The translations under genes and the position numbers were made by a program. From NCBI RefSeq assembly GCF_019029495.1, contig NZ_JAERQM010000002.1, positions 434,001-498,000 of the forward strand: a DNA stretch of 64,000 bases. Reading direction: 5' to 3'. Below are positions 6,664 to 56,433 of the stretch, piece after piece. Below the pieces are notes generated by a model. The model was not told the origin of the DNA, ran no database searches, and saw nothing but the letters and a program-made list of their open reading frames with translations. Origin of the DNA: Falsiroseomonas oleicola. GTDB taxonomy: Bacteria > Pseudomonadota > Alphaproteobacteria > Acetobacterales > Acetobacteraceae. Each line of letters begins with the position of its first letter. The stretch's first letter is position 1.

Positions 6664-6753
6664 CGGCCCGCATCGCGGGCCGAGCGCCCGAATGGGCGCC
6701 GCGACAGGTGTCGCGAAGCCAAGCGGCCGGAGGCCGCGCCGGCGACTGAGGGC
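6664..6753 (-). repeat. Four-hairpin intergenic element, copy A
   Basis: Structured repeat between convergent genes. On the plus strand four perfect stem-loops lie in a row: 6664-6682 (8 bp, loop ATC), 6684-6699 (6 bp, loop GAAT), 6700-6715 (6 bp, loop AGGT) and 6723-6737 (6 bp, loop GGA). Stems 3 and 4 are separated by the conserved single strand aagccaag, and the tail is gccggcgactgagggc. Copies B (54791-54881) and C (56345-56433) share spacers, loops and tail but have different, still fully paired, stems. All three lie just 3' of a minus-strand stop codon, hence the strand given. Confidence 0.85.
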
Positions 6754-6775
6754 GTTTTCGTCTTGGCGAAAACGC
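6752..6775. terminator. Hairpin between convergent genes
   Basis: A perfect 9-bp stem (gcgttttcg / cgaaaacgc) with a 6-nt loop lies between the MFS gene (+) and the hydrolase (-), 8 bp from the hydrolase stop. It overlaps the tail of hairpin element copy A by 2 bp. There is no clear U-tract on either strand, so it is terminator-like rather than a certain intrinsic terminator. Confidence 0.5.
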
Positions 6776-6782
6776 AGGCCAA

Positions 6783-7706
6783 TCAGCCTGCGATCAGCCG
6801 GTAGCCCGTGCCGGCGCGTTCCACCCGGCCGGTCGCAGGCATGGGGAAGTGGTAGCCGACCACCGGAATCCGGTCCGTCGCCAACTGGTCCAGCAGCCGC
6901 CTGCGGGTCGCCACCGCCATGGTCGGGTCCATGTCGAACACCGGATACCATTCGGGATTCGCCATGAAGAGGGACGGCGTGGTGATGGCGTCGCCGATCA
7001 CCAGCAACTGCGCCCCGCCATCCGCCACCAGGAAGGAGACGTGCCCCGGGGAATGCCCATGGCTGGCGGCCGCGGAAATGCCCGGCGCCACCTGCGCGCC
7101 CGGGGCGAAGGGCGTGATCTTCCCCTGATAGGGCGCGAAGCGGCGCCGGGCATTGGCGAAGCCGGGGCGGCGCGCCGGGGTGGCACGGCTTTCCTCCCCC
7201 GCATCCATCCAGAAGCGCCACTCGCCTTCCGGCACCATGATCCGCGCATTGGGGAAGGCGGCGCTGCCATCGGACGAGATCAGGCCGCCGATATGGTCGC
7301 CGTGGAAATGGGTGTGGGCGATCAGCACCACCTCCGCCGGGTCGAGGCCGGCGGCGCGCATATTGGTCATCAGGGCGGGCGTCGCCCCGGTGCCGACATC
7401 CAGCGCCACCAGCCCGGCGGGGGTGCGGACGAGGGTGACGTTGTAGGGATTCTCCAGCGCATTGCCGGCCTGGCCGGCGGCGCGGAAGGCGCTGGCCACC
7501 TGGGCGGGCTCCGCATTCACCACGAAGCCCTGGGTGGCGTCGGGCCGGGTGGCGGCGCCGTCATTCACCACCGTGGCGCGCAGGGATCCCACCGCGATGT
7601 GGTGGAAGGGCGGATTGGTCGCCCCGCCGCCCTGCGCCCAGGCGGGCAAGGCGGGAGACATGGCGGCGGCGGTGCCGGCGGCCAGCAGGGTGCGGCGGTC
7701 GATCAT
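6783..7706 (-). CDS. Tat-exported MBL-fold metallo-hydrolase (downstream paralogue)
   Basis: Metallo-beta-lactamase-fold hydrolase, 307 aa from the ATG at 7706. The N-terminus MIDRRTLLAAGTAAAMSPAL..AWAQ is a short twin-arginine-type signal, pointing to folded export to the periplasm. The dinuclear metal motif HTHFHGDH is at residues 131-138, the second histidine motif SHGHSPGH near 220, and a metal-bridging aspartate in VIGDAITTP. A C-terminal GYHFPMPATG supplies the last histidine. The upstream gene is a close paralogue ending 13 bp away, so the pair forms an operon. The substrate is unknown; the family includes lactonases and other hydrolases, and nothing visible decides between them. Confidence 0.9.
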   Translation of the reverse strand: MIDRRTLLAAGTAAAMSPALPAWAQGGGATNPPFHHIAVGSLRATVVNDGAATRPDATQGFVVNAEPAQVASAFRAAGQAGNALENPYNVTLVRTPAGLVALDVGTGATPALMTNMRAAGLDPAEVVLIAHTHFHGDHIGGLISSDGSAAFPNARIMVPEGEWRFWMDAGEESRATPARRPGFANARRRFAPYQGKITPFAPGAQVAPGISAAASHGHSPGHVSFLVADGGAQLLVIGDAITTPSLFMANPEWYPVFDMDPTMAVATRRRLLDQLATDRIPVVGYHFPMPATGRVERAGTGYRLIAG

Positions 7707-7719
7707 CGGTGCGCGCTCC

Positions 7720-8697
7720 TCAGCCTGCTGCCGCCCAGTCGGCGGGGACGAAGCGGTAGCCCTCGCCTTCCTTCGCCATGAAGCCGGTGGCGGGGAAGGG
7801 GAAGTGGTAGCCGCTGACGCGGATGCGGTCGGTCGAGACCATGTCGAAGACCCGGCGCCGCGTGGCTTCCGCCGCCGCGCCATCGAAATCGAAGGCCACC
7901 CGGAAGTCCGGACGGCGGGCGAAAAGCTCCGGCCGGTTGGTGAGGTCGGCCAGGAAGATCATCTGATCCTGGCCATCGGCGATGCGGTAGATGGTGTGGC
8001 CCGGCGTATGGCCATGGGCGGCGATGGCGGTCACGCCCGGCATCACCTCCGCATTCCCGGCGATCTGCCGCACCTTGTCCCGATAGGGGGCAAAACGCTG
8101 CGCCACATTCGGGAAGGTGCCGCGCTGGCCCTGCGGGCTGCGGCTTTCATTGCCCGTGTCGGTCCACCAGGCCCATTCCGCCTGGGGCACCACGATCTCC
8201 GCATTCGGGAAGGCGGCGCTGCCATCGGCGTTCAGAAGGCCGTTCACATGGTCGCCGTGGAAGTGGCTGAACACCACGGTGGTGACGCGGGCGGGGTCCA
8301 GCCCGGCGGCGCGCATATTGGCCACCATCAGACCCACCGGGGACCCGGCCGGCTGCGCCCCGTTGCCGGTGTCGAACAGCACCAGGCCGGCTGGCGTTTC
8401 CAGGCAGGTCAGGGTGAAGGGAATGCGGAAGGTGTCGGTCGGCAGGAAGCTTTCCGCCAACACGCGCTGAACCTCGGCCAGCGGGGTCGCCGGAACGAAA
8501 CCCTGCGCCAGCGGGATGGCGCGGCTGCCATCATGCAGCATCACCACCGTCTTCGTGCCGAGCCGGAACCGGAAGAAGCCCGGCGCCTGGACCAGCGGCG
8601 CCGGCGCAGGCGCCTGGGCCAAAGCCGGCATGGCGCGAATCAGCGCCGGGGCGGCCAGCGCCCCCGCGGCGCCCAGCATCAGGTGACGGCGATTCAT
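7720..8697 (-). CDS. Tat-exported MBL-fold metallo-hydrolase (upstream paralogue)
   Basis: A 325-aa metallo-beta-lactamase-fold hydrolase, paralogue of the gene just downstream. The start at 8697 is supported by GGGAGG upstream. A twin-arginine-like signal (MNRRHLMLGAAGALAAPAL..ALAQA) is followed by the domain: SHFHGDH at residues 144-150, AAHGHTPGH near 235, D in IFLADLTNRPE, and GYHFPFPATG near the end. Both copies share motifs such as NMRAAGLDPA and DGSAAFPNA, so they arose by tandem duplication. They keep all metal ligands, so both are probably active, perhaps on different substrates. Confidence 0.9.
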   Translation of the reverse strand: MNRRHLMLGAAGALAAPALIRAMPALAQAPAPAPLVQAPGFFRFRLGTKTVVMLHDGSRAIPLAQGFVPATPLAEVQRVLAESFLPTDTFRIPFTLTCLETPAGLVLFDTGNGAQPAGSPVGLMVANMRAAGLDPARVTTVVFSHFHGDHVNGLLNADGSAAFPNAEIVVPQAEWAWWTDTGNESRSPQGQRGTFPNVAQRFAPYRDKVRQIAGNAEVMPGVTAIAAHGHTPGHTIYRIADGQDQMIFLADLTNRPELFARRPDFRVAFDFDGAAAEATRRRVFDMVSTDRIRVSGYHFPFPATGFMAKEGEGYRFVPADWAAAG

Positions 8698-8795
8698 GTG
8701 GAGGCCTCCCGCATTCGCAACCTGCGGTCAGTTTGGATGCCGGCCCCCGGTTGCAAGGCCTGCAGGCCGCGCCGCGCAACGATCTTTCGCGAGCC

Positions 8796-10076
8796 TCAGC
8801 GCCGGAAGCTGACCACCGATTCCAGATGTGGCGACCAGGGGAACTGGTCCACCGGCGTCGCCTGCGTCACCTTGAACCCCGCCTTCACCAGCGCCCCCGC
8901 ATCGCGCGCCAGCGCCACCGGGTTGCAGGAGACATAGATCACCACCGGCACCTTGCTGCGGGTGATCTGCGCCACCTGCTCCGCCGCGCCATTATAGGGC
9001 GGGTCCAGCACCACCGCGCCGAAGCCGTTCAGCTCCGCCGGCAACAAGGGACGATAGGCCAGGTCGCGGCGGATCGCCTCCACCCGGCCGCCGGCCTTGC
9101 GCGCCCCGGCATCCAGCGTCGCCACCGCCGCCGCATCGCCCTCATAGGCCGCGACGCGCCCCTTGGCCGAGAGCGGGAAGGACAGGGTGCCGATGCCGGC
9201 ATAGAGATCCGCGATGCGCGCCCGCACCGGCAGTTTCTGCGCCGCCAGCCCGGCCAGCACCGCGGCGATGATCGCCGCCTCCCCCACCGGGGCGGCCTGG
9301 AGGAAGGCGCCGGGGGCGGGCGCGACGGAGACGCCCGAAAGGTCCAGCCGCACCGGCCCGGCCTGCGCGGCATTCTCCACCGGCCCGTCCTTCAGTGCCC
9401 AGGCGATGCGGGGCAGGCCATGCGCCTGGCCGAAGGCCGCCAGCATGGCGCGCTGGGAGGCATCGAGCGGCCCATCGGTGCGCAGCAGCAGGTCCGGCCC
9501 ACTGTCCAGCAGGTTCAGCACGGCGGAGCCCTCCCGCTTCAGCGCCGGCATCCGCCGCAGCAATTCCCGCAACGGGCGGAACAGCGCCACCAGCGCCGGG
9601 TCCAGCACATGGCAGGTGGACAGATCCGCCACCGCCGCGCTGCCGCGCTGGTGGAAGCCCAGCGCCACCGCCCCGCCCTGAAGCCGCTTCACCGCCAGGT
9701 CGGCGCGGCGACGCGTGCCCGGGGGTGCCAGCACGATCTCCGCCACCGCCGCATCCGGCTGGCCGGCCCGGTCCAGCGCCGCCACCAGCCTCTCCCGCTT
9801 CCAGGCGGCATAGGCGGGCAGGGCCAGATGTTGCAGCGCGCAGGCGCCGCATTCGATCAGGAAATGCGGGCAGGGCGGGTCCACGCGGTCCGGGCTCGGC
9901 GCCAGGATCGCCTCCACCTCCGCCGCCACGCCTTCCCCGCGCCGGGCGCCCAGCCGCGCCCGCACCTGCTCGCCGGGCAGGGTGCCGGGCAGGAAGACGA
10001 GGCCCTGCGGCGTCTCCGCCACCCCGTCCCCGGCCGAGCCCAGCCATGAAATCGTGACGTCCATCGCCGGTTGCAT
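8796..10076 (-). CDS. TrmA/RlmD-type RNA (uracil-5-)-methyltransferase
   Basis: SAM-dependent class I RNA methyltransferase, 426 aa, of the RlmC/RlmD/TrmA family that makes 5-methyluridine in rRNA or tRNA. An N-terminal TRAM-like part (about 5-60) is followed by cysteines C69, C76 and C79 (PPCPHFLIECGACALQHL) plus a fourth in LSTCHVLDP, the pattern of the [4Fe-4S] cluster in RlmD. The Rossmann motif is DLYAGIGTLSFPL, then VLDPPYNG, and the catalytic cysteine is in YVSCNP. I chose the ATG at 10076; ATGs at 10064 and 10133 are in frame, but the latter would overlap the divergent FkbM gene. Whether it modifies 23S rRNA or tRNA cannot be told from sequence alone. Confidence 0.9.
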   Translation of the reverse strand: MQPAMDVTISWLGSAGDGVAETPQGLVFLPGTLPGEQVRARLGARRGEGVAAEVEAILAPSPDRVDPPCPHFLIECGACALQHLALPAYAAWKRERLVAALDRAGQPDAAVAEIVLAPPGTRRRADLAVKRLQGGAVALGFHQRGSAAVADLSTCHVLDPALVALFRPLRELLRRMPALKREGSAVLNLLDSGPDLLLRTDGPLDASQRAMLAAFGQAHGLPRIAWALKDGPVENAAQAGPVRLDLSGVSVAPAPGAFLQAAPVGEAAIIAAVLAGLAAQKLPVRARIADLYAGIGTLSFPLSAKGRVAAYEGDAAAVATLDAGARKAGGRVEAIRRDLAYRPLLPAELNGFGAVVLDPPYNGAAEQVAQITRSKVPVVIYVSCNPVALARDAGALVKAGFKVTQATPVDQFPWSPHLESVVSFRR

Positions 10077-10122
10077 CGCGTCCCGCCGGATGCGATCTGG
10101 GTCCGACTCTGGACGGGGCTCC

Positions 10123-10941
10123 ATGCTCGACAAGCTGTCTTCCTTGCTGCGCGACCGGCTTCGGCCAAGGCGCGAATGGTATTATCTCGGGAATGGGATG
10201 GGTTTGGCCCTGACCCACTTCGGCCGCAAGATCTACCTGCCCGGCGACGATGCCGGCATGACGCCGGAGATCATCCTGCGCGGCCAGTGGGAGCCGCATG
10301 TGGAAGCCGTGCTGCGCAACCGCCTGAAGCCCGGCATGCAGGTGGCGGAGGTCGGCGCCAGCCTCGGTTTCCACACGCTGGTGATGGCGGAGGCGGTGGG
10401 CCCCACCGGCCATATACACAGCTTCGAGCCCTATCCCAAGGTGCTGCCGCTGCTGCGCCGCACCATCGCCGCCAATCATCTCGGCGCAAGGGTGACGCTG
10501 CGCGAGGTGGCGATCCTGCACGAGCCCGGGGAGGTGCGCTTCGCCGCCGATCCCGAGCAGACCGGCAGCGCGCATCTGGCCATCGCCGTCGCCGCGACGA
10601 ATTACAGCGACGGCTTCGTCACCCCCGCCATGCGCCTGGACGATGCCCTGGCGGAGGTGCCGGCGCTCGACCTGCTGCGCATGGATTCGGAGGGGACGGA
10701 AGGCCTGGTCCTGTTTGGCGCCACCGAATTGCTGGCCCGTTCCCCGCGCCTGTGCATCGTCCTGGAATGGTCGCCCATCATGCTCCAGGCGCGCGGCGAC
10801 GTGGCGGAGCTGGCCAACTGGATCGAGGCGCTCGGCTTCCGCTGCCAGCGGATCGGCAAGGACGGCAGCTTCACCCCGGTGACGGCGGCGCAGATGCCGG
10901 GCCTGGAGCATTGTGACCTGGTGCTCGACCGCCCTGCCTGA
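10123..10941 (+). CDS. FkbM-family SAM-dependent methyltransferase
   Basis: A 272-aa methyltransferase of the FkbM family. The SAM-binding motif I is VAEVGASLGFHTLVMAEAVG (about 65-85), followed by the FkbM-typical HSFEPYPKVLPLLRRTIAAN (about 100-118) and the late motif DLLRMDSEGTEGLVLFGA. FkbM enzymes usually O-methylate sugars or small molecules; the acceptor here is unknown. The start at 10123 (MLDKLSSLLRDRL) leaves 46 bp to the start of the divergent RNA methyltransferase, so promoters for both must sit in or overlap that gap. A longer open frame upstream is only the antisense of the neighbour. Confidence 0.85.
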   Translation: MLDKLSSLLRDRLRPRREWYYLGNGMGLALTHFGRKIYLPGDDAGMTPEIILRGQWEPHVEAVLRNRLKPGMQVAEVGASLGFHTLVMAEAVGPTGHIHSFEPYPKVLPLLRRTIAANHLGARVTLREVAILHEPGEVRFAADPEQTGSAHLAIAVAATNYSDGFVTPAMRLDDALAEVPALDLLRMDSEGTEGLVLFGATELLARSPRLCIVLEWSPIMLQARGDVAELANWIEALGFRCQRIGKDGSFTPVTAAQMPGLEHCDLVLDRPA

Positions 10942-11045
10942 CAGAGCCGCCTGACAGCGCCGCTTCCTGCCCGGCCCAAGCGGCTCTATGACTGGTGGTC
11001 GCGGCGTCGCCTGAGGGGGCGCCGGCGACAGGAGGGCGCCAGGGC

Positions 11046-13070
11046 ATGCTGCCGAGCGAGATTTCGGGCAAGTACGAAGCGCGCGGCACGCTCGGCGCCG
11101 GCGCCATGGGCACCGTCATCGACGCCTTCGACCGGATGATCGAGCGCCGCGTCGCGGTGAAGCTGGTGCGCCTGCCCGCCGGCGACGATGCGGAGGCGCG
11201 GGAGGCGCATGCGCGGTTCCGGCGCGAGGCGCAGGCGGCGGGCCGACTCTCCCACCCCAATATCGTCGGCGTCTTCGACTATGGCGAGAATGCCGATACC
11301 GCCTGGATCGTCATGGAGCTGGTCGAGGGCGGCACGCTGAAGGGCGTGATGGACCGTGGCGAGCGCCTGCCGGTGCCGCAGATCGTCCGGCTGATGGACC
11401 AGATCCTGGGCGCCCTGGCCTATTCCCACGGCCGGGGCGTGGTGCACCGGGACATCAAGCCGGCCAATATCATGCTCACGGCCGATGCTCCGGGCGGGCC
11501 GCAGGTGAAGATCGCCGATTTCGGCATCGCCCGGATCGAAAGCTCGACCATGACCCAGGTCGGCACGGTGATGGGCACGCCGAGCTACATGGCGCCGGAA
11601 CAGTTGCGTGGGGAGCCGGTGGATGCGCGGGCCGATATCTGGGCCGCCGGGGTGCTGCTGTACCAGCTGCTGACCGGCGAGAAGCCCTTCGATGGCGGCT
11701 ACAGCGCGCTGATGCACCGCGTGCTGACCACCGAGCCGCCGCCGCCGAGCCAACTGGCCGTCAGCGCGCCCCGCGCCTTCGACGCGGTGGTGGCGCGCGC
11801 CCTGGCGAAGCGCCCGGACGACCGCTTCGCCAGTGCCGGCGCCTTCGCCGAGGCGATCCGCGCGGCCGGGTCCGGGGTGGCGGCGGAGGCCACGGGCTTC
11901 GGCGGTGCCACGGGCTTTGCCGGCGCGGGCAAGCTGCCGGGGCTGGATGATGCGACCATGCTCGCCACCGGCACGCATCGGCCTGCGGCCCCGCCGCCGC
12001 CGGTCGTCGCGCCGCCGCCCCGGCGCGATGGCGGTGGGCTGAAATGGGCGCTGCTCGGCGGCGTCGCGCTGCTGGCGGCCGGGGCCGCCGGATTCCTGTT
12101 CTGGCCCGCGGGCACGCCGGTTCCGACCACCCAGGTCGCGACCGGCGACACGCCTGCGCCGACCCCGCCACCGGCGCCTGCTCCGGCGCCGCCCCCGACG
12201 CCAACCCCAGCTCCGGCGCCCGTGCCGGCCCCGGCACCCTCTTCGACCCCCTTGCCCACTCCGGAGCCTGGGCCTGCGCCAACCCCGGCACCCGCGCCGA
12301 CTCCCGCACCGGCCCCGGCGCCCGAGCCAAGCCCGGCACCCGCGCCGATTCCGACGCCCGTGCCAACCCCGGTCCCGCCTCCGGCGCCCGCCCCGTCACC
12401 GGCCCCCGCGCCGCGCCCCGATCTGCGCGCCGCCGGCGCCGCCGCGGCCTCCGCCGCGCCCTGCAGCCTGCTGGACTACGCCGCCACCGACACCAGCCTG
12501 ACCATCACCGGCCTGCTGCGCCGGGGCGGGGAGGAGGCGGTGCGCCGCGCTTTGGCCGATCGGGGTGTGCCCTCCGGCACCGCGACCCTGCACCTGCAGG
12601 CTTTCGAAGGCCCCTATTGCGGCGCGCTCGACACCATCCGCCAGGTCGCGGCCGGGGCGCAGGAGGCGCCGCTGGTCGCCATTGCCGGCAGCATGCCCTT
12701 GCAGCGCGGTGACCTGCTGCGGCTGGATGTGCGGATGCCGGCCTATGCCGGGCAGCTCTATGTCAGCTACCTGATGAAATCGAACGAGATCGTGCATCTC
12801 GTCCCCTCCGAGCCGCAGCCCGCCGGTGCCAGCCTGCGCCTCGGCGAGCCCCGCCCCGGCTTCACGGGGTGGGAGGTGGATGAGCCCTTCGGCACCGACA
12901 TGATCGTGGTCTTCGCCTCCGAACGCCCGCTTTTCCCGCAGCCGCGCCCGGTGGTGGAGCCGATCGACGACTATCTGCCGGCCCTGGCCGCCGCCTTGCG
13001 GGAGGCCCGCAACCAGGGCCATCGCGTCAGCGCCCGCGCCGTGCTGCTGGAGACGGTGGCGCGGCGGTAG
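11046..13070 (+). CDS. ppkA: Membrane-anchored Ser/Thr protein kinase, PpkA-like, with C-terminal DUF4384-type domain
   Basis: Hanks-type kinase of 674 aa, start at 11046 with AGGAGG 10 nt upstream. The kinase domain (about 10-270) is complete: glycine loop GTLGAGAMGTV, K39 (VAVKL), HRDIKPAN (catalytic D136), DFG at 158-160, and APEQ with RADIWAAG. A single transmembrane helix at about 333-353 is followed by roughly 100 residues of Pro-Ala repeats and an extracytoplasmic domain like DUF4384 (LQRGDLLRLDV, GQLYVSYL). This layout matches kinases of T6SS loci. It is the only kinase in the locus and would act with the FHA protein (37.2 kb) and phosphatase (45.4 kb) on TssL (known for Agrobacterium PpkA; inferred here). 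Confidence 0.88.
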   Translation: MLPSEISGKYEARGTLGAGAMGTVIDAFDRMIERRVAVKLVRLPAGDDAEAREAHARFRREAQAAGRLSHPNIVGVFDYGENADTAWIVMELVEGGTLKGVMDRGERLPVPQIVRLMDQILGALAYSHGRGVVHRDIKPANIMLTADAPGGPQVKIADFGIARIESSTMTQVGTVMGTPSYMAPEQLRGEPVDARADIWAAGVLLYQLLTGEKPFDGGYSALMHRVLTTEPPPPSQLAVSAPRAFDAVVARALAKRPDDRFASAGAFAEAIRAAGSGVAAEATGFGGATGFAGAGKLPGLDDATMLATGTHRPAAPPPPVVAPPPRRDGGGLKWALLGGVALLAAGAAGFLFWPAGTPVPTTQVATGDTPAPTPPPAPAPAPPPTPTPAPAPVPAPAPSSTPLPTPEPGPAPTPAPAPTPAPAPAPEPSPAPAPIPTPVPTPVPPPAPAPSPAPAPRPDLRAAGAAAASAAPCSLLDYAATDTSLTITGLLRRGGEEAVRRALADRGVPSGTATLHLQAFEGPYCGALDTIRQVAAGAQEAPLVAIAGSMPLQRGDLLRLDVRMPAYAGQLYVSYLMKSNEIVHLVPSEPQPAGASLRLGEPRPGFTGWEVDEPFGTDMIVVFASERPLFPQPRPVVEPIDDYLPALAAALREARNQGHRVSARAVLLETVARR

Positions 13071-13091
13071 AAGAGGCTCCGCCGCCCCCGC

Positions 13092-14207
13092 CTACGGCAT
13101 CCCGTCCCGCATCAGCCCGCGCAGCCGTTCCACCTCTGCCGCGTCCAGGCCGAGATGCGCCGGGGTGAAGAAGCGCGGGTCGGGGGTGTGCAGCAGATAG
13201 GCCTGGGCCTCGTCGATCACCAACTCCTCGATCCCGGTGTCATAGCCCTCCCGCCCCAGAAAATGGCGGAAGGCGGCGCGCTCGGCCTCGGTGAAGCGGT
13301 CGTGCCAGACCCGGCGGACATGGGCTGCATAGGCCGGATCGGTGCCGAAGCGGCCATGGCTGAGCTCGTGGTGCAGGATGGTGGCGCGCCCGGCCGCATC
13401 CATCCGCTCACCCGGCGCGGCGAGGGACAGCAGCACGATCTCCTGCCCCGGCGGCACCAGGCCGCGCGCCAGCCGGAACTGCGCGTGCAGCCAGTCCTCG
13501 GCCGGGGACAGCGCCAGCCCGTCGCGTTCGGCAAGCTGGAAGAAGCGCGCCAGGTCGGTGCCGCGGTAGTTGTGGCCGAAATAGAAGGTGGCCGGCGTGT
13601 CGCCGGCGCGGGCGATGGCCTCCGCCATCTCCGCCTCGTTCAGCACCCGGTCGCGCGGCAGCCCGGCCTTCTCGACCAGCGCCGCCACCCGGTTCAGCGC
13701 CGCGCCCTGCGCCTCCATCGTCGGATAGTCGATCAGGAAGATGGCGGGGTTGGTGGCGAGGCGCAGCAGCACGGGGCGGTCCGCCCGATGGTCGCGGATC
13801 GCCGGCTCCTCCATCAGCGGCGGCAAGGCGGCGAGGCGCGGCGTCTCGGGCACCGGCTCCGGCGCGGGCGGCCCGGCGGGCAGGCCGAAGGCGGCGGGGG
13901 GGGCGGGCGCTGGCGGGGGCACGGGCTGCGGCACCGGATCAGGCGGGCTGGGCGGCGCGATCATCACGATGGGGGCCGGCACGGCGGGCGCCGCGCCGTC
14001 CCGCTGCACCCACCACCAGCCCGCCGCGATCCCGGCAACCCCCGCCAGGCCGGCAACGCCCAGCACCGGCCAGGCGGCGCGTCGCCGCTGCACGGCTGGA
14101 GCGGGGGCCGGCGACCCCCATTCGACATGCGGCGTGGCCGGGCGCGGCACGATGCCCAGGCTGCGGCGGATCGTGGCGTCTTCCTCTGCCGGCATCGGGC
14201 GCGTCAT
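13092..14207 (-). CDS. Single-pass membrane protein with an HExxH zincin-like motif
   Basis: A 371-aa protein I cannot assign to a named family. A short cytoplasmic N-terminus is followed by one transmembrane helix (about 44-66, ending GWWWVQRD), a proline-rich linker and a periplasmic domain. That domain contains HELSH at residues 280-284 (ILHHELSHGRFG), a match to the zinc-peptidase HExxH motif. EELVIDEAQAYLLH follows about 45 residues later, with glutamates (E327, E328, E333) that could be the third ligand. It may be a membrane-tethered metallopeptidase. It converges on the PpkA-like kinase with a 21-bp gap and lies downstream of two OmpA-like genes. An alternative start is 14195. Confidence 0.6.
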   Translation of the reverse strand: MTRPMPAEEDATIRRSLGIVPRPATPHVEWGSPAPAPAVQRRRAAWPVLGVAGLAGVAGIAAGWWWVQRDGAAPAVPAPIVMIAPPSPPDPVPQPVPPPAPAPPAAFGLPAGPPAPEPVPETPRLAALPPLMEEPAIRDHRADRPVLLRLATNPAIFLIDYPTMEAQGAALNRVAALVEKAGLPRDRVLNEAEMAEAIARAGDTPATFYFGHNYRGTDLARFFQLAERDGLALSPAEDWLHAQFRLARGLVPPGQEIVLLSLAAPGERMDAAGRATILHHELSHGRFGTDPAYAAHVRRVWHDRFTEAERAAFRHFLGREGYDTGIEELVIDEAQAYLLHTPDPRFFTPAHLGLDAAEVERLRGLMRDGMP

Positions 14208-14302
14208 CCAAGCTGGGGCTGGCTTCTCCGCCCCCGATTTCGTTGCAGATGCCGCGAGGCGGCGGGGCCGCTTCCGCGAGGCCGCGGGGGCGGCCGCCCG
14301 GA

Positions 14303-14944
14303 TCAGCCGTCCAGGTTGATGACCTGCACCCGCCGGTTGCGCGGCTCGTTCACCCCGTCGCCGGTCGGCACCAGAAGCTGGGTCTGGCCCAGGCCCACCG
14401 ATTCCAGCCGGCTGGCGGAGACGCCGTAGCGCCGGATCAGATGATCGCGCACCGCGGCCGCCCGGCGTTCGGACAGGGCCTGGTTCATCGCCGCGTCGCC
14501 GACCGAATCCGTATGACCCTCGATACGGAAACGGTAGGGCGCGAGGTCGGGGGATGACAGGGCGCTGCCCAAGGGTGCCAGCCGGGCCTCGGCCTGCGGT
14601 GTCAGCGTGGCGGAACCGCTGGGGAAGGTCACGGTGATGGAGGCGGCGGCCACCCCCTCCGGCGCCGTGGTGGTCGCGGGTGCTGCGGCCGGGATGACGG
14701 GGCGCGGCGGCGGCACCGGGCGCTGCGGCGCCGGCACATTGGCAGACGTCACCGGCCGGGGCGGCGGCGTGGCATCGGCCGGGGCGGGCAGGCGGATGCC
14801 ACGGGTGGAATCGCCGGCGCGCGGCCGCAACTGCTCGATCAGCCGCAGCGCCGCCGGGTCGGTCTGTGCCAGGGCGGGCAGCGGTGGCAGCATCGTCCAG
14901 CCGGCCAGGGCCAGGGCTGCAAGGCGGAAGGATTGCATCGACAT
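14303..14944 (-). CDS. OmpA-family peptidoglycan-binding protein (copy 1)
   Basis: A 213-aa exported protein: a Sec signal peptide (MSMQSFRLAALALAGWTML..ALAQ), a proline-rich linker to about residue 95, then an OmpA-like domain (ITVTFPSGSATLTPQAEARL, GHTDSVGDAAMNQALSERR, RNRRVQVINL) that normally binds diaminopimelate in peptidoglycan. The start has GGAGG 8 nt upstream. The paralogue 64 bp away on the same strand shares signal, linker and domain, so this is a tandem duplication. Presence in a T6SS locus suggests a role in tethering the apparatus to the cell wall, but TssL also has its own OmpA domain. Confidence 0.88.
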   Translation of the reverse strand: MSMQSFRLAALALAGWTMLPPLPALAQTDPAALRLIEQLRPRAGDSTRGIRLPAPADATPPPRPVTSANVPAPQRPVPPPRPVIPAAAPATTTAPEGVAAASITVTFPSGSATLTPQAEARLAPLGSALSSPDLAPYRFRIEGHTDSVGDAAMNQALSERRAAAVRDHLIRRYGVSASRLESVGLGQTQLLVPTGDGVNEPRNRRVQVINLDG

Positions 14945-15008
14945 GGCTCAGCCTCCTCGGTTGTGGCGACCAGTATAGAACGGTGCGGCCCATGCGCCGA
15001 TGCCGAAA

Positions 15009-15632
15009 CTAACCGCCGAGATTGACCACCTGCACGCGCCGGTTCCGCGGCTCATCCACCCCATCCGGCGTCGCCACCAGCAATTGCTGTTCGCCCAGGC
15101 CCAGCACCTCGATCCGGCCGGGGTCGAGGCCATGACGCTGCACCAGGAAGTCCCGCACCGCGGCGGCGCGCCGTTCCGACAGCGCCTGGTTCATCGCCGC
15201 ATCGCCCACCGAATCCGTATGGCCTTCCACCCGGAAGCGGTAGCCGGCGAGGCGGCTGGAGCCGAGCGCCTGGCCCAGATTGTCCAGCACCCCCGTGGCG
15301 CGCGGCGACAGGGTGGCGGAGCCGGTGTCGAAGGTGACGGTCAGCGAAATCGCCGCCGCCCCCTCCGGCGCCGTGGTGGAGGACACATCCGGCACGGCGA
15401 TGCCGGTATTGGGCCGGCCGGTGACCGGTGGCTTCGCGGCATCCGGCTCAGCCGGCCCGGGCGTGGAGGGCACGCGAATGCCGCGCACGCCGCGCCGGGC
15501 GGGGTCCAGCCCATCGATCATCCGCTGCACATCCGGCACGGCATCCTGCGCCCGCGCGGTGCCCGGCAGCGCCGGGCCGGCGGCCAGGGCCAGCAGCACG
15601 GCGAGGGGGCGGATCAGGTCTTGGGGGCGCAT
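15009..15632 (-). CDS. OmpA-family peptidoglycan-binding protein (copy 2)
   Basis: A 207-aa paralogue of the next gene. The start at 15632 (MRPQDLIRPLAVLLALAAG) has GGAGG 7 nt upstream; the longer open frame before it is spurious. A cleavable signal ending ARAQ, a proline-rich linker and a C-terminal OmpA domain (LTVTFDTGSATLSPRA, EGHTDSVGDAAMNQALSER, RNRRVQVVNLGG) are visible. The block GHTDSVGDAAMNQALSERRA is identical to copy 1, pointing to recent duplication or gene conversion. It probably sits in the periplasm or outer membrane bound to peptidoglycan. Confidence 0.88.
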   Translation of the reverse strand: MRPQDLIRPLAVLLALAAGPALPGTARAQDAVPDVQRMIDGLDPARRGVRGIRVPSTPGPAEPDAAKPPVTGRPNTGIAVPDVSSTTAPEGAAAISLTVTFDTGSATLSPRATGVLDNLGQALGSSRLAGYRFRVEGHTDSVGDAAMNQALSERRAAAVRDFLVQRHGLDPGRIEVLGLGEQQLLVATPDGVDEPRNRRVQVVNLGG

Positions 15633-46146: not shown

Positions 46147-46159
46147 TCCCGGCACATCG

Positions 46160-47747: not shown

Positions 47748-47819
47748 CCCAGGACCCCCCAACCGACGCCAAACCGTAACCCTGAATGCTGCGGCGCAGC
47801 AACGGGGGCGCGCGGGTGA

Positions 47820-48035
47820 TTGCAGGAGGGGCTCTGCCCCTCCCGCACCCTCCCCGCCAGGAGGCAGTGGCCTCCTGGACCTCAGGACCTTGAACGGAAA
47901 TGGAGAGGGGCCAGCAGGACCGCTGAACATGCGGTACCTCTGGCCCCTCTCCATTTCCGTTCATGAATCAAAGGGTTCCAAGGGGCCACTGCCCCTTGGC
48001 GGGAGGGTGCAGGGAGGGCGGAGCCCTCCTTGCAA
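47820..48035. repeat. 216-bp palindromic repeat of two inverted two-hairpin units
   Basis: Fills most of the 314-bp gap between the Bug gene and glutaryl-CoA dehydrogenase. The left arm (47820-47913) and right arm (47941-48035) are inverted copies. The inner 22 bp (47892-47913 and 47941-47962) are a perfect inverted repeat around a 27-nt centre. Each outer arm holds two hairpins: 47825-47843 and 47857-47878 on the left, 48013-48029 and 47978-47999 on the right. The matching stems differ in sequence between arms but stay fully paired (for example ccaggaggc/gcctcctgg against ccaaggggc/gcccctt gg). No ORF is supported in it. Confidence 0.85.
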
Positions 48036-48061
48036 GCTACTCGCGCAACACCCCGTCTGCT

Positions 48062-49282: not shown

Positions 49283-49410
49283 GGCTTCCTCCTCGCGGGG
49301 CGGGCGACGGGCTGGGAGGGGGATGCGCGCCGAAGCGAGCCCCATGGCAACCAGCCCTTGTTGGGCAATCTGGCGCGGCTGCCGTCATCCGGCAACCGCG
49401 CGCAGGTCCA

Positions 49411-51585
<2,175 letters not shown>

Positions 51586-51761
51586 GACTCCTGGTGAGCC
51601 AGAAGGCGCATCCGGCGGGGGCGCCCCGCAGGCGCAAGACTGGACGCTTCGCGGGACCGGGCGGGATGGACGCCATATGCGCCGCTATGGCACGGAAATC
51701 AAGGCAAGATGCCGCCTGTCCCGCGCTGGACGGCACGGTTTCGCCGCCCTAGCACCGGAAG

Positions 51762-52496
51762 ATGTCTCCATCCATGACGCTTCTGTTGCTGCCCGGCCTG
51801 CTCTGCGACGCGCGGCTGTGGCGCGACCAGGTCGCCGCGCTGGGCGGCACGCTGCCCTGCCAGGTGGCCGACCTGACCCGGGACGACACGCTGCCGGCCA
51901 TGGCGGCCCGCGCCTTGGCCCTGGTGCCGGAGGGCTCGCCCATCGCGCTGGTGGGCCTGTCCATGGGCGGCTATGTGGCGCTGGAGGCGATGCGCCAGGC
52001 GCCGCATCGCATCGCCCGCCTGGCGCTGATGGACACCTCCGCGCGGCCCGACACGCCGCAACAGGCCCGCCGCCGGCGCGGCCTGCTGGCGCTGTCGCAA
52101 TCCGGCCAGTTCCGCGGAGTCACCCCGCGCCTGCTGCCGCAACTGCTGCATCCCGACCGCCTGGAGGGTCCGCTGGGGGAGGAGGTTCGCCAGATGGCGG
52201 AGCGTGTCGGTCGCGACGCCTTCGCCCGCCAGCAGCGCGCCATCCTCGCCCGCCCCGACAGCCGCCCGGACCTGCCCGGCCTCCGCGTGCCCACTTTGGT
52301 CGCGGTGGGCGAGGCCGATCTGCTGACCCCGCCGGACTTGGCGGCGGAGATGGCCGCGCTGATCCCCGGCGCCGTGCTGCGCATCCTGCCCGGCTGCGCC
52401 CATCTGCCGCCGATGGAAGACCCCGCGACCGTGACCGCCCTGCTGCGCGACTGGCTTGCTGCCGCCACGATCGCCCCGCAGCATGGGCCGCTTTGA
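51762..52496 (+). CDS. Alpha/beta hydrolase
   Basis: A 244-aa alpha/beta-hydrolase-fold enzyme. LLLLPGLLCDARLWRDQVAA supplies the oxyanion region, the nucleophile S67 lies in LVGLSMGGYVALEAM, an acid follows in VGEADLLTPP, and the catalytic histidine is in GCAHLPPMEDP near the C-terminus. No lid insertion or signal peptide is visible. The reaction is unknown. It starts just outside the helicase gene on the other strand (177 bp away) and is followed by a small PH-domain gene after 12 bp. Confidence 0.88.
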   Translation: MSPSMTLLLLPGLLCDARLWRDQVAALGGTLPCQVADLTRDDTLPAMAARALALVPEGSPIALVGLSMGGYVALEAMRQAPHRIARLALMDTSARPDTPQQARRRRGLLALSQSGQFRGVTPRLLPQLLHPDRLEGPLGEEVRQMAERVGRDAFARQQRAILARPDSRPDLPGLRVPTLVAVGEADLLTPPDLAAEMAALIPGAVLRILPGCAHLPPMEDPATVTALLRDWLAAATIAPQHGPL

Positions 52497-52508
52497 GGAG
52501 ATCCGCCC

Positions 52509-52895
52509 ATGGCTGAGACCGATATCCTGGTGACGCGTGAGACCAAGCGCTCCTTCGGCCTGGTCCGGGGCGGGCTGGCCGTGCTGATGCTGGGCCTGCC
52601 CTTCCTCGGCCGCCAGCGAATCCGCGTGACGACGGAGCGCGTCATCATCGAGGAAGGCTTCTGGACCAAGCTGCGCGACGATGTGGAGGTGTTCCGCATC
52701 CGCGACGTGGTCTCGAAACAGGCGATCTGGCATCGCATGCTGGGAATCGGCGACGTGGTCATCAAGGCCACCGAGGGCCGCACCGATGAATCGCATGTGC
52801 TGCGCGGCGTGCCCGACCCGGTGGCGGTCAGCGAGGCGATCCGCGCCGCCTGGAACGCCAGCGGGCGGCCGCGGACCAGCACCAACCTGGATTGA
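52509..52895 (+). CDS. Bacterial PH-domain protein (DUF304/YdbT-like)
   Basis: A 128-aa protein with a short hydrophobic segment (VRGGLAVLMLGLPFLG, about 19-34) and a bacterial pleckstrin-like domain (RIRVTTERVIIEEGFWTK, LRDDVEVFRIRDVVSKQAIW, HRMLGIGDVVIKATEGRTDE). The motif DVEVFRIRDV...GIGDV is the DUF304 core. It probably sits at the membrane. The role is unknown. It is likely co-transcribed with the hydrolase upstream and converges on the dehydrogenase gene. Confidence 0.82.
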   Translation: MAETDILVTRETKRSFGLVRGGLAVLMLGLPFLGRQRIRVTTERVIIEEGFWTKLRDDVEVFRIRDVVSKQAIWHRMLGIGDVVIKATEGRTDESHVLRGVPDPVAVSEAIRAAWNASGRPRTSTNLD

Positions 52896-52896
52896 A

Positions 52897-52914
52897 GGGG
52901 GGCGTGAGCCCCCC
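52897..52914. terminator. Hairpin between convergent genes
   Basis: A perfect 7-bp stem (ggggggc / gcccccc) with tetraloop GTGA in the 24-bp gap between the PH-domain gene (+) and the dehydrogenase (-). No long T-run follows on either strand, so it is a terminator-like structure of moderate confidence that could serve both directions. Confidence 0.5.
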
Positions 52915-52919
52915 GCCGT

Positions 52920-53885
52920 TCACACCACCTGGTTGACCAGCTTCTCCCCCGCCCGCAGCCGCGGCAGGTTGGCTTCCAGCAGATCGAGCACATTGCCCTC
53001 ATAGGCCCGCGTCTCGCCGCCGGTATGCGGCGTGATGAAGACGTTCGGCATCGCCCAGAGCGGGCTGCCGGCGGCCAGCGGCTCCTCCGTCGTCACATCC
53101 AGCGCGGCATTGCCGATCTGGCCGGAGGCCAGGGCCGCGATCAGCGCCGCCTCGTCGCAGACCGCGCCGCGCGCGACGTTCACCAGCGTCGCGCCCGGCT
53201 TCATGGCGGCGAAGGCGGCGGCGTTCATCAGGCCGCGCGTCTCCGGCGTCAGCGCGCAGGTCAGGGCGACGATGTCGGCGCGGCCGAGCTGGGCGTGCAG
53301 CGCCTCCATGCCGTGGATCTCGTCGGCACCCTCGCTGCCCTTGGACGGGTCCTGCCGCAGCCCCACCACCTTCATATCAAAAGCCTTGGCGAGGCGCGCC
53401 AGCCGCCCGCCGATGCGGCCGATGCCGACCACCAGCAGGGTCTTGCCGCCCAGCTCATCCTCGCGCCGGGACAGGTCGCCGATCATGCCGCGCCAATGCT
53501 GCTTCGCCTGGTTGTCGCGGGCTTCCGGCAGGCGGCGGGTGATGGCGAGGATCAGCGACAGCGCGTGTTCCGACACCGCATTGGCATTGGCGCCCTGGGC
53601 GGAGGCCAGCCGGATGCCGGCGCCGCCGAGCACCGCCTTGTCATACTGGTCGACGCCGGCGCTGATCGACTGGATGAACTTCAGCTTGGGCGACTTGGCG
53701 GTCAGGTGGTTGCGCCACATGCCCGAGACCAGCAGCACATCGGCCTCCGGCAGCCTGGACTCCAGCTCCTCCAGGCTGCGGACCTCGAAATGCTTCAGCT
53801 TGCCGCCGCGCGCCGCGTAGCTCTCGCCGAAGCGGTAGGCGACATGGGCGAAGCAGAGGGTGAGCTGGTCATCGGGGGGCAGCAT
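52920..53885 (-). CDS. D-2-hydroxyacid dehydrogenase
   Basis: A 321-aa NAD(P)-dependent dehydrogenase. Rossmann motif GIGRIGGRLARLAKAF (about 154-169), catalytic R239 (NVARGAVCDE), E268 (TTEEPLAAG) and H287 (TPHTGGETR) are all present. The N-terminal substrate domain holds ISAGVDQYDKAVLGGAG and ANAVSEHALSLILAITRRLP. It reduces a 2-keto acid or oxidises a D-2-hydroxyacid in the cytosol; the natural substrate cannot be told. GGAGAAAC-like site precedes the start. It is alone on its strand here. Confidence 0.93.
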   Translation of the reverse strand: MLPPDDQLTLCFAHVAYRFGESYAARGGKLKHFEVRSLEELESRLPEADVLLVSGMWRNHLTAKSPKLKFIQSISAGVDQYDKAVLGGAGIRLASAQGANANAVSEHALSLILAITRRLPEARDNQAKQHWRGMIGDLSRREDELGGKTLLVVGIGRIGGRLARLAKAFDMKVVGLRQDPSKGSEGADEIHGMEALHAQLGRADIVALTCALTPETRGLMNAAAFAAMKPGATLVNVARGAVCDEAALIAALASGQIGNAALDVTTEEPLAAGSPLWAMPNVFITPHTGGETRAYEGNVLDLLEANLPRLRAGEKLVNQVV

Positions 53886-53951
53886 GGCGTTTCTCCGGGA
53901 GTTTGGAGGCGCACCAAACAGGGGCGAGACGGCGCAGGCAACCCCGTCCCG

Positions 53952-54785
53952 CTACCCGCGCGCCAGAAGCGCCCGCGCCAGCCGGTCGAATTCGGCGATC
54001 TCCAGCGTCTCCGCCCGTCGGTCGCCGGCGATTCCGGCGGCCTCCAGCAGCGCCTCGGCATTGCCCAGGGTCTTCAGCGCGCCGCGCAGCATCTTGCGGC
54101 GCTGGCCGAAGGCGGCGGCGGTGGTGCGTTCCATGGCGGCGAACAGCGCCGGACCGGGGTCCTCGGCATGCGGGGTCAGGCCGACCACGGCGGAGAACAC
54201 CTTAGGCGGCGGGGTGAAGGCGCCCGGTGGCAGGCTGAGCAGGAACTGCGCCCGGCAGCGCCACTGCGCCAGCACGCCGAGTCGGCCATAGGCGTCGCTG
54301 CCGGGGGCGGCGCAGATGCGCTCCGCCACCTCCTGCTGGAACATCAGGGTCATGCCCTCGATGCCGGAAGCCTGGCGCAGCCAGCCGACCAGCAGGGGGG
54401 TGGCGACGTTGTAGGGCAGGTTGGCGATGATGCGGCGCGGCGCCGGCATCTCGGCCAGCACGTCCACCTCCAGCGCATCCGCCTCCCGCACCGTCAGGCG
54501 GCCGGGGTGATGCGCGGCCAGGGCGGCCTGCGCGGCGATCGCCCGCCGGTCCAACTCCACCGCCAGCACATGGGCGGCCGGCGTCGCCAGCAGCGCGCGC
54601 GTCAGCCCACCGGGGCCCGGCCCCACCTCCAGCACCTGCCGCCCCGTGAGGTCGCCGGCGAGCGACGCGATGCGGGCGCAGACCGCCGGGTCCAGCAGGA
54701 AGTGCTGGCCGAGCGATTTGCGGGCGTCGAGCCCGTATTCGCGGACCGTGTCGCGGAGGCTCGGAAGCGCAGAAGTTTCAGACAT
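53952..54785 (-). CDS. rsmA: 16S rRNA dimethyladenosine transferase RsmA (KsgA)
   Basis: A 277-aa enzyme that dimethylates two adjacent adenines in helix 45 of 16S rRNA. Motifs are KSLGQHFLLDPAV (about 20-32), SAM site VLEVGPGPGGLTRALLA, ELDRRAIAAQAAL, and the catalytic IIANLPYNVATPLLVGWL, then MFQQEVAERICAAPGSDAYG. The start at 54785 is the usual MSETSALPSLRDT. In many relatives surA-pdxA-ksgA are linked; here pdxA is absent, and a hairpin terminator plus structured repeat separate rsmA from surA. Confidence 0.96.
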   Translation of the reverse strand: MSETSALPSLRDTVREYGLDARKSLGQHFLLDPAVCARIASLAGDLTGRQVLEVGPGPGGLTRALLATPAAHVLAVELDRRAIAAQAALAAHHPGRLTVREADALEVDVLAEMPAPRRIIANLPYNVATPLLVGWLRQASGIEGMTLMFQQEVAERICAAPGSDAYGRLGVLAQWRCRAQFLLSLPPGAFTPPPKVFSAVVGLTPHAEDPGPALFAAMERTTAAAFGQRRKMLRGALKTLGNAEALLEAAGIAGDRRAETLEIAEFDRLARALLARG

Positions 54786-54790
54786 GCCTG

Positions 54791-54881
54791 CGGACCGCTC
54801 CGGCGGTCCGAGCGGCCGAACGGCCGCCGCCGCCTATGCGGCGAGCCAAGCCGCCGGAGGCGGCGCCCGGCGCCTGAGGGC
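54791..54881 (-). repeat. Four-hairpin intergenic element, copy B
   Basis: Same layout as copies A and C. Stem-loops at 54791-54810 (8 bp, loop TCCG), 54812-54827 (6 bp, loop GAAC), 54828-54843 (6 bp, loop CTAT), conserved agccaag at 54844-54850, then 54851-54863 (5 bp, loop GGA) and the tail cgcccggcgcctgagggc (54864-54881). It lies between surA and rsmA, on the 3' side of surA. Confidence 0.85.
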
Positions 54882-54931
54882 AAAAATACAGCAGTTGAGG
54901 CAGATGGTCGCAGACCATCTGCCTCAACTGC
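54882..54931 (-). terminator. Strong intrinsic terminator at the 3' end of surA
   Basis: A perfect 19-bp inverted repeat (54891-54909 and 54913-54931, loop 3 nt) overlaps the last codons and stop of surA. Read on the minus strand it is followed by tgtatttttg, a fair U-tract. This would end most transcripts coming through lptF-lptG-lptD-surA before rsmA. Confidence 0.8.
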
Positions 54932-56246
54932 GCATCTCGATCTGCGCGCGGCGGCGCAGGTCGCGCTGGACCTGGCGGGACAGCAGCTCGGCGCGGTCGC
55001 GCACCAGCTGGGCGCGGGCGGCATCCGGCGTCAGCTCCGCCTGGTTCCGGGTCTCCCGCGTGCAGACCATGATGACGGCGACGCCATCCGGGGCGATCAC
55101 CGGCTGGCTGGCGCGGCCCGGCTGCAGGCTGCCGATCAATTGCCGCAGCGGCGGCGGCTGCACGCCTTCCAGCCGCACCTCGCCCGGATCGGGGTCGCGG
55201 CCGCTATTGGCGGCGCGGCCCGCCGCTTCCACCGCCTCGCAGGTCCGGGCGGAGCCGGCCAGGGCGCGGGCGCGTTCCACGGTCTGGATCTGCTGCTGCG
55301 TCGGGTTGTTGGGGTCGAGCGGCGAGGAGAAGGGGAAGAAGGCCTGGCGCAGCGTCAGGATGGTCGCCATGTCGCGCCCCACCTCCCGCCGCTGGCGCAG
55401 GGTGATGATCTGGAAGCCGCCGGGCACGCGGATCGGGTTGGCGATGGCGCCGGGCGGCATCTGCCGCACCACCTCCGCCACCTCCCGGTCCAGGGCCTCC
55501 GCGCCCACCCAGCCGAGGTCGCCGCCCTGCAGGGCGGTCTGGGACTGGCTGAACTGGGTGGCGGCGACGGGGAAGGGCACGCCGCGGCGAAGCTGGGCGA
55601 CCACCTCGTCCACGAAGGTCCGCACCTCGGCTTCCTCGGTCGGGTCGTCGATCGGCACGAAGATCTCGCTGACCAGGAATTCGGGCTGGCCGGTGCGGGC
55701 GCGCTGGCCGGCGATCAGCTCCGCCACCTCCGCCTCCCCGGGTTCGGCCTGCGGCCCGAGAAGCTGGCGCACCAGCCGCGCCCAGCCGATCTGGACGCGG
55801 AGCTGGTCATACAGCACCCGCGGCTCCACCCCGGCGCGACGCAACTGCCCCACCAGGGCGCCGGCGGGCAGGCCGTTGCGGCGTTCCAGCTCCGCCACCG
55901 CGGTGGCGATGTCGTTGTCGGTGACGGCGATGCGGCGGCGCTGCACCTCCTGCATGCGCAGGCGTTCATCCACCAGCAGGCGGGTGACCTGCGGGGTCAG
56001 GCGTTCCAGCACCTGCGGCGTGATGTTCAGCCCGGCATTCAGGGCGAAGAGGCGCCGCCGGCCATCGACATCGGCGCGGGTGACGATGTCCCCGTTGATG
56101 ACGGCGACGATGCGGTTGACCTGGGATGCGCCGGCCTGGGTGGCGGCGCGCGGCGCCGCCCCCTGGGCCGATGCGGCGCCGGGCAGGAGGATGAGCGGGG
56201 CGCTGGCCAGGGCGGACAGCAGCAGGACGCGGAATGTGGGACGCAT
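54924..56246 (-). CDS. surA: Periplasmic chaperone / peptidyl-prolyl isomerase SurA
   Basis: A 440-aa outer-membrane-protein chaperone. A Sec signal (MRPTFRVLLLSALASAPLIL, cleaved after ASAQ) is followed by the SurA N-terminal domain (VNRIVAVINGDIVTRADVDG, RLTPQVTRLLVDERLRMQEV, IAVTDNDIATAVAELERRNG). A parvulin domain has VSEIFVPIDDPTEEAEVRTF and TALQGGDLGWVGAEALDREV, then GGFQIITLRQRREV. A second, degenerate parvulin-like part lies near 300-410. Position after lptD is the common alphaproteobacterial and gammaproteobacterial order and fits joint supply of outer-membrane biogenesis factors. Confidence 0.94.
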   Translation of the reverse strand: MRPTFRVLLLSALASAPLILLPGAASAQGAAPRAATQAGASQVNRIVAVINGDIVTRADVDGRRRLFALNAGLNITPQVLERLTPQVTRLLVDERLRMQEVQRRRIAVTDNDIATAVAELERRNGLPAGALVGQLRRAGVEPRVLYDQLRVQIGWARLVRQLLGPQAEPGEAEVAELIAGQRARTGQPEFLVSEIFVPIDDPTEEAEVRTFVDEVVAQLRRGVPFPVAATQFSQSQTALQGGDLGWVGAEALDREVAEVVRQMPPGAIANPIRVPGGFQIITLRQRREVGRDMATILTLRQAFFPFSSPLDPNNPTQQQIQTVERARALAGSARTCEAVEAAGRAANSGRDPDPGEVRLEGVQPPPLRQLIGSLQPGRASQPVIAPDGVAVIMVCTRETRNQAELTPDAARAQLVRDRAELLSRQVQRDLRRRAQIEMRS

Positions 56247-56344
56247 GACGCTTTCCTAGAGCATTCCCCGGGCCGGCGAAATCACCTGACCGAGCGCATT
56301 CTTGGGCCGCAACGAAAAGCCGTGCGACCATTGTCCAACCCCGG

Positions 56345-56433
56345 CACCCGCCGCAGGCGGGTGAGCGGCCGAATGGCCGCCGCGCCAGGTGGCGCGCAGC
56401 CAAGCCCCCGCAGGGGGCGCCGGCGCCTGAGGC
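56345..56433 (-). repeat. Four-hairpin intergenic element, copy C
   Basis: Stem-loops at 56345-56363 (8 bp, loop GCA), 56365-56380 (6 bp, loop GAAT), 56381-56396 (6 bp, loop AGGT), conserved cagccaag at 56397-56404, then 56405-56417 (5 bp, loop GCA) and the tail cgccggcgcctgaggc (56418-56433). It begins 4 bp after the lptD stop and fills half of the lptD-surA gap. Confidence 0.85.

Follow-up and report, generated by a model that had tools for sequence, protein, structure and literature searches.

Background

The nearest described parallel to the element reported here is found in the pneumococcal repeats BOX, RUP and SPRITE. According to the survey that describes them (PMC3049150), these are short, dispersed, intergenic and strongly folded; BOX and RUP are bounded by terminal inverted repeats and duplicate their target, and SPRITE is enriched near gene 3' ends, where co-option as a terminator has been suggested. 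We describe a repeat with a core of four hairpins that occurs in three copies in a 64,000-nt stretch of Falsiroseomonas oleicola (contig NZ_JAERQM010000002.1; this whole stretch is called the window below) and is dispersed through the same genome and those of its relatives. It is probably a mobile, non-autonomous element resembling miniature inverted-repeat transposable elements (MITEs), with a constraint on its fold. The pneumococcal repeats belong to a different phylum, and the distinction from them is drawn from descriptions rather than from sequence: RUP and SPRITE are described as AT-rich (PMC3049150) whereas the present element is GC-rich, has a TNA target that is often a stop codon and carries a core of four hypervariable, covarying stems.

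ERIC/IRU and Correia are MITE-like intergenic repeats of about 100-150 bp, palindromic and able to affect transcripts. They are also named in PMC3049150, and their likeness to the present element is one of description only. Repetitive extragenic palindromic sequences (REPs), as presented in PMC3733652, each consist of a single small hairpin that carries an unpaired tag at one end, in contrast to the several hairpins, terminal repeats and TNA duplication found here. That paper also reports that repeats of the CGTC type predominate in Alphaproteobacteria, have no dedicated transposase and are missing from Acetobacteraceae, and that the ends of GTAG repeats often provide flanking open reading frames (ORFs) with a stop codon. 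Reading the parsed copies of our element revealed no single hairpin with an unpaired CGTC tag. Lichenicola cladoniae is listed in the same family as F. oleicola and is presumably a relative. PMC12306157 counts 1369 predicted REPs in its genome.

In the open-access literature (subscription papers lie outside that search) we found no earlier description of this MITE family of Acetobacteraceae and other Alphaproteobacteria, and in a review of prokaryotic MITEs (PMC10969869) a word search found neither Alphaproteobacteria nor stop codons. The element is unusual in two respects. Its target triplet restores stop codons, and its interior of several hairpins undergoes compensated substitutions while the locus stays fixed.

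Family size and distribution

Dispersed copies in the F. oleicola genome were first revealed by the pattern AGCCAAGCNNCNG. A covariance model was built from six genomic copies, including copies 1 and 3 of the window. It matches the window at three places and no others (6664-6753, 54791-54881 and 56345-56434), all on the plus strand, and covariance-model matches in the whole genome number at least 117 (E≤0.01), a lower bound obtained by scoring 150 of 16543 first-look candidates. Each of the 15 genus genomes carries between 19 and 107 matches (E≤0.001). Matches were also obtained in 20 of 120 genomes drawn from the Acetobacteraceae (E≤0.01) and in 15 of 289 drawn from the Alphaproteobacteria (E≤1e-4), the latter including F. 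oleicola itself and therefore 14 others.

The tail pattern of the element occurs in at least 114 stretches of named genomes. The 80 listed are mostly from Roseomonas, Falsiroseomonas, Roseococcus and Rubritepida, and Magnetospirillum, Paramagnetospirillum, Pararhodospirillum and Niveispirillum also appear among the matches listed. A plasmid search returned a single partial match, in Niveispirillum, covering 35% of the query. Exact matches to the tail pattern were also seen in seven contigs of the IMG/VR viral collection (L480-L486).

At several loci of the F. oleicola genome (L033, L039, L042, L043, L049, L051, L034 and L032) two copies of one orientation follow each other head to tail at a distance of about 10-50 bp.

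Element ends and target duplication

A pair of terminal repeats (at least 7 of 12 positions matching) was found in 17 of 275 copies. Sixteen of these span 136-164 bp and have terminal repeats of the TACC type; the seventeenth, of 106 bp and flanked by AAA, may be due to chance. The 3-mers flanking the two ends are equal in 13 of the 17 (12 of the 13 being TNA), whereas 10000 shuffles gave 4.1 on average and never more than 11.

G143 is a distant genome of the class. Fifteen copies retrieved from it are nearly identical, and the ends of the element can therefore be read where the likeness stops. They are TACYAA... and ...CTGGTA, and delimit about 146 bp. Fourteen of these copies were examined, and in nine of the eleven readable cases the flanking 3-mers are equal (TAA, TGA or TTA).

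The left arm, between the end and the core, is often 6 or 26 nt long. The right arm often forms a fifth palindrome, different in its letters from copy to copy, and ends in a TGGTA-like repeat. The terminal-repeat pairs and the equal flanking 3-mers thus place the four hairpins at the core of a longer, MITE-like element, a point that the initial annotation of the window had missed. Several general properties of MITEs are seen: the element is short, non-coding and present in many dispersed copies, it duplicates its target site and it has terminal inverted repeats, though most copies have decayed or missing ends. The suggestion in the initial annotation that the three copies might belong to a mobilised repeat family is thus borne out by the number of matches in the genome, their presence throughout the genus, the terminal repeats and the equal 3-mers.

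In G143 (contig C2, L510:1501-1542) a right-end palindrome stands alone between TAA and TTA, with no four-hairpin core beside it. It is perhaps a smaller mobile unit or a deletion product.

Stop codons and gene context

In 11 of the 17 end-bearing copies, the triplet next to the element serves a called neighbouring gene as its stop codon. Since a TNA duplication inside a stop codon supplies the triplet again, the codon stays intact. The same preference can be seen in the distances between cores and gene ends in F. oleicola. On the stem1 side, a gene ends exactly 26 nt from the core in 8 of 55 copies and 6 nt from it in 5 of 55, and on the tail side a distance of 31 nt occurs in 6 of 56. Assuming a uniform spread and correcting for 61 bins, eight copies in one bin are expected by chance with a probability of about 5e-5 and six with about 0.009. 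The preferred distances of 6 and 26 nt recur as left-arm lengths in the end-bearing copies; most of the 26-nt arms have decayed in sequence but not in length.

Gene context was determined for 79 of the 117 matches in the F. oleicola genome, picked by score and by the earlier pattern and including tandem copies, using a codon-usage gene caller written for this analysis. Thirty-four copies lie in convergent gaps, 43 in co-directional gaps and 2 in divergent gaps, and none is inside a gene. The background, taken as all gaps of at least 10 bp in 464 kb of the same genome, comprises 41 convergent, 188 co-directional and 60 divergent gaps. Convergent gaps are clearly enriched (Fisher p 1.5e-7) and divergent gaps depleted (2.8e-5), and a stop codon lies within 45 nt of the core in 67 of the 79 copies. 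In co-directional gaps the end of the upstream gene is faced by the tail in 22 cases and by stem1 in 21, which speaks against a sequence that needs one reading direction. The initial annotation was therefore correct in expecting a non-random position relative to genes; the common orientation relative to stop codons that it noted in the three copies does not hold as a rule, the orientation being random.

Core structure and covariation

The order of the core is constant across genera: stem1, A, stem2, stem3, nAGCCAA, stem4 and then the tail GCC(C)GGCGnnTGAGG(G)C. Stem1 has 5-11 bp and usually starts with CGG. Stem2 and stem3 have 6 bp each, the former with a loop that is mostly GAAT or GAAC and the latter with a loop ending in RT. 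Stem4 has 5-8 bp and a loop that is mostly GGA or GGAT. Within the tail, as judged by eye, GCCC tends to be accompanied by GGGC and GCC by GGC; copy 1 of the window is among the exceptions.

Hairpins were parsed allowing at most one mismatch per stem (two or more were not accepted). This succeeded for 165 of 193 copies, 151 of them with all four slots. Slots 1-4 hold 73, 14, 11 and 37 distinct hairpins, respectively, and 602 of the 646 hairpins parsed are perfect. In an alignment of 81 distinct rows from the F. oleicola genome, which is fitted to the structure and hence leans towards it (two rows are cut off by locus ends), standard pairs occupy 98.4% of the pair cells compared with 75.6% in shuffles. 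The number of double-changed cells is 371 versus 114.5, and the covariation score is 0.460 versus 0.103, a value reached in none of 500 shuffles. The signal collapses once the partner columns are slid by 1-3 positions, and free hairpin parsing gives the same picture as the structure-fitted alignment. The covariation that the initial annotation had read from three copies is genuine.

Mismatches on the model strand are more often G-T than A-C, in 32 versus 9 cells of the model-fitted alignment and in 19 versus 8 distinct hairpins with a symmetric parser. As a signal of an RNA strand this excess is suggestive only. A previous count with a looser parser (CA 15, AC 6, TG 10, GT 6), which has no G-T excess, was replaced since pairings across slot borders had been mixed in.

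Some copies contain additional palindromes. At L341 and L349 (genome G132) and at L001 and L015 (F. oleicola), longer palindromes such as GGTCACGGC...GCCGTGACC or GTCGGGGCACTGCCCCGAC replace or extend the stems of slots 2 and 4, so that the hairpins resemble modules. Five of 153 copies (L129, L013, L229, L190 and L202) have a 32-nt CGTC...GACG palindrome nested in slot 3, and a related CGTC module is present in the tail of 4 copies. The idea of a separate CGTC...GACG repeat family was rejected, since the loose pattern shows no enrichment outside the element (18 occurrences in 464 kb compared with 26 in the reversed control).

Change in place and presence at orthologous loci

Matching of flanks between F. 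oleicola and three near congeners (169 copies: 79, 38, 26 and 26) identified 16 orthologous groups, in a search able to detect same-orientation pairs only. At one locus, shared by three species, stem1 is CGGCCTTGGC, CAGCCTGGGCA or CAGCCTGGGC, each perfectly paired and seen at no other locus; the pairs have therefore changed together at a fixed site. At the same locus the copy of G129 has one mispaired position in stem3.

Among the parsed orthologous hairpins, 404 pair-cells are the same, 44 are compensated and 11 are changed on one side, and 57 of 218 loop sites have changed. Because this comparison drops unparsed hairpins, we also used a structure-blind alignment (42 directed comparisons, in which each pair is counted twice). 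Here the pair-cells comprise 935 without change, 36 with compensated change, 52 changed on one side, 1 broken and 70 with gaps. If the two sides had changed independently at this rate, 1.3 compensated and 118 one-sided cells would be expected. Unpaired sites have changed in 18% of cases and paired sites in 6%.

The presence of copies at the sites occupied in the window varies within the genus. The gap between surA and ksgA contains an element-like sequence in 5 of the 15 genomes (F. oleicola, G129, G125 and G121 by model and G126 by eye) and is no longer than 13 bp in six. Genome G132, with a SurA protein 90% identical, is without both copy 2 and copy 3. In the lptD-surA gap, G130 also has an element-like end (by eye). 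Downstream of the major facilitator superfamily (MFS) gene next to copy 1, a copy is present in F. oleicola and G121 only, among 14 genomes compared, and that of G121 lies between the MFS stop codon and a terminator-like sequence common to relatives.

Proposed mechanism

In the explanation that we favour, the element inserts at a TNA triplet and duplicates it, as the matching flanking 3-mers show. Insertion at a stop codon of either strand would thereby rebuild the codon; the position is that observed at the end-bearing copies, and the benefit to the gene is presumed. Copies that arrive in genes or promoter gaps are presumably lost by selection, which would leave the observed distribution at gene 3' ends in either orientation. 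Movement would be provided in trans, presumably by the transposase of an insertion sequence (IS) with like ends (no such IS was found in the sequence described below). After insertion the core stays paired while its letters change, which is what the compensated changes at fixed loci show, and the fold would then be put to use.

We infer that the host selects for the fold. Stability of the 3' untranslated region or protein binding, both raised in the initial annotation, are possible roles. The role that we would place first, tentatively and judging from sequence, is that of an orientation-indifferent RNA structure at transcript 3' ends, which might slow 3' exonucleases or attenuate read-through. 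A more elaborate version, which we consider rather unlikely, is that of a transposable element with a folded RNA cassette inside, using stop codons as a safe harbour in both orientations and domesticated after landing, so that its stems are rewritten while fold and loops are kept. Were this so, hosts would gain a spreading set of interchangeable 3'-end RNA structures.

A number of observations weigh against a mobile element with a constrained fold. Recognisable ends are kept in just 17 of the 275 copies, and the flanking 3-mers are unequal in 4 of these 17 and in 2 of the 11 readable copies of G143. Since copies were sought with a structure model, intact cores are favoured. The 52 directed one-sided stem cells indicate that pairing is not absolute, and some of these may be misalignment at swapped whole hairpins. 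Neither a transposase nor an autonomous partner was found in the genomes and sequence sampled. Finally, comparison with 400 kb of G132 revealed several element-free sites but none with exact junctions (80-90% identity windows), because the intergenic DNA has diverged too far.

Alternative explanations

The strongest open alternative to host selection on the fold accepts the same mobile element and supposes that its stems are unselected. Template switching in hairpins would perfect imperfect palindromes (quasi-palindrome correction), hairpins would also be exchanged between copies, and the fold would be without a role in the host. We judge this rather unlikely. It would account for the right-arm palindromes, which have unrelated letters in different copies and are still paired, for several orthologous slots that differ as whole hairpins (for example, GGCCGC versus GCGGCC) and for the longer palindromes sometimes inserted in slots 2-4. 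It does not explain the conservation across bacterial families of the loops (GAAY, GGA/GGAT) and of the AGCCAA and TGAGGG linkers. The rate of change at paired sites is also below what correction of neutral changes would produce, with the reservation that unpaired sites are no clean neutral standard. The element thus offers a way of testing whether the inside of a bacterial MITE is under selection as a structure in the host or stays palindromic through mutation alone.

Two other explanations dispense with such an element. A repeat of the REP or bacterial interspersed mosaic element (BIME) type, moved as single-stranded DNA by a REP-associated tyrosine transposase (RAYT), as the initial annotation had considered, or by another Y1 transposase, would share the intergenic palindromes, the high copy number and the position mostly near gene ends. 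This is now largely refuted and very improbable. The RAYT-type domain PF01797 was found in none of the 15 genus genomes and in one of the 20 genomes with element matches drawn from the Acetobacteraceae (a control search was positive in 5 of 14 named genomes), matching 3-mers are present at the element ends, and GTAG and CGTC were not seen, by reading, as unpaired end tags. A bias relative to replication was suggested by contig C12 (17 versus 5), but same-orientation clustering was absent from three genomes after collapse of tandem copies (p 0.37, 0.11 and 0.75), and GC skew proved too weak for orienting contigs. A stationary family of structured RNAs or terminators, non-mobile and inherited with the neighbouring genes, would fit the proximity to gene 3' ends, the retention in 16 orthologous groups (with the restriction to same-orientation pairs given above) and the ability to fold on either strand. 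It is contradicted by the random orientation, by the absence of copies at orthologous sites of close relatives and by the near-identical G143 copies with their matching 3-mers. As read in the three window copies, there is no run of T directly after the core, such as an intrinsic terminator would have, and Rfam 15 gives no match in the window at gathering score. We give this explanation very little credence indeed.

Search for a mobilising enzyme

If the favoured explanation of a MITE-like element moved in trans is correct, its transposase would be encoded elsewhere. No transposase was recognised by reading the 30 top clusters of 550 flanking ORFs, on which no family search was run; the largest cluster is presumably a substrate-binding protein family that has expanded. 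In the 2.74 Mb of sequence examined, no long element bounded by matching ends was detected, and the matches to the G143 ends that were read represent whole or partial copies of the small element. One weak candidate for an autonomous IS (L197:14610-16912) was rejected: it cuts across ordinary-looking genes.

The IS1031 group, described from acetic acid bacteria, has TNA as its target. It belongs to the IS5 family, and PMC2516522 presents recognition of three nucleotides as common in the group, which resembles the present element in the length of the insertion site. The group is a candidate source of the transposase, and no IS with matching ends was found.

The three copies in the window

The three copies were found where the initial annotation had placed them, and their features are listed in Table 1. 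All twelve stems are perfectly paired, and the stem order, kept loops and AGCCAA spacer are as it had described. It had placed the copies 4-43 bp after minus-strand stop codons, which is close to the 29, 42 and 3 nt that we measure for copies 1, 2 and 3. The motif AGCCAAG is uninformative by itself (4 occurrences in the window compared with 5.9 expected); it is the whole structure that is informative.

Copy 1 lies between convergent genes, 6 nt past the stop codon of the MFS gene (plus strand) and 29 nt before that of a gene for a metallo-beta-lactamase-fold protein (minus strand). Its 6-nt left arm begins after the former and its right arm reaches the latter. Copies 2 and 3 lie between the co-directional genes lptD, surA and ksgA, and the end of copy 2 is 5 nt from the ksgA start codon.

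Table 1. Coordinates of the three copies and adjoining stop codons (numbering of the window)
Feature	Position	Strand	Remarks
MFS gene, TGA stop codon	6655..6657	+	Adjoins copy 1 on the left; candidate left copy of the target triplet
Copy 1, short left arm	6658..6663	+	GACCCG, degenerate relative to TACCAG (likeness by eye)
Copy 1, four-hairpin core	6664..6753	+	Stem1 6664-6682, stem2 6684-6699, stem3 6700-6715
Copy 1, rest of core		+	AAGCCAA 6716-6722, stem4 6723-6737, tail 6738-6753
Copy 1, right-arm (fifth) hairpin	6752..6775	+	GCGTTTTCG-tcttgg-CGAAAACGC
Opposing metallo-beta-lactamase-fold gene, stop codon	6783..6785	-	Right edge of copy 1
Copy 2, four-hairpin core	54791..54881	+	Stem1 54791-54810, stem2 54812-54827, stem3 54828-54843
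Copy 2, rest of core		+	AGCCAA 54844-54849, stem4 54850-54864, tail 54865-54881
Copy 2, right-arm palindrome	54896..54926	+	TGAGGCAGATGGTC-gca-GACCATCTGCCTCA; last triplet is the surA stop codon (54924-54926, minus strand)
Copy 3, four-hairpin core	56345..56434	+	Stem1 56345-56363, stem2 56365-56380, stem3 56381-56396
Copy 3, rest of core		+	CAGCCAA 56397-56403, stem4 56404-56418, tail 56419-56434
lptD, stop codon	56438..56440	-	3 nt past the tail of copy 3; right arm of copy 3 missing or truncated

The window also contains two repeats of other kinds. An array with a 24-nt period (51061-51303) is situated inside a minus-strand ORF (49411-51585) and codes for a low-complexity stretch. A direct repeat of 300 nt (14307-14606 and 15013-15312), with 70% identity and its units 706 nt apart, lies in coding sequence and is likely a duplicated gene segment.

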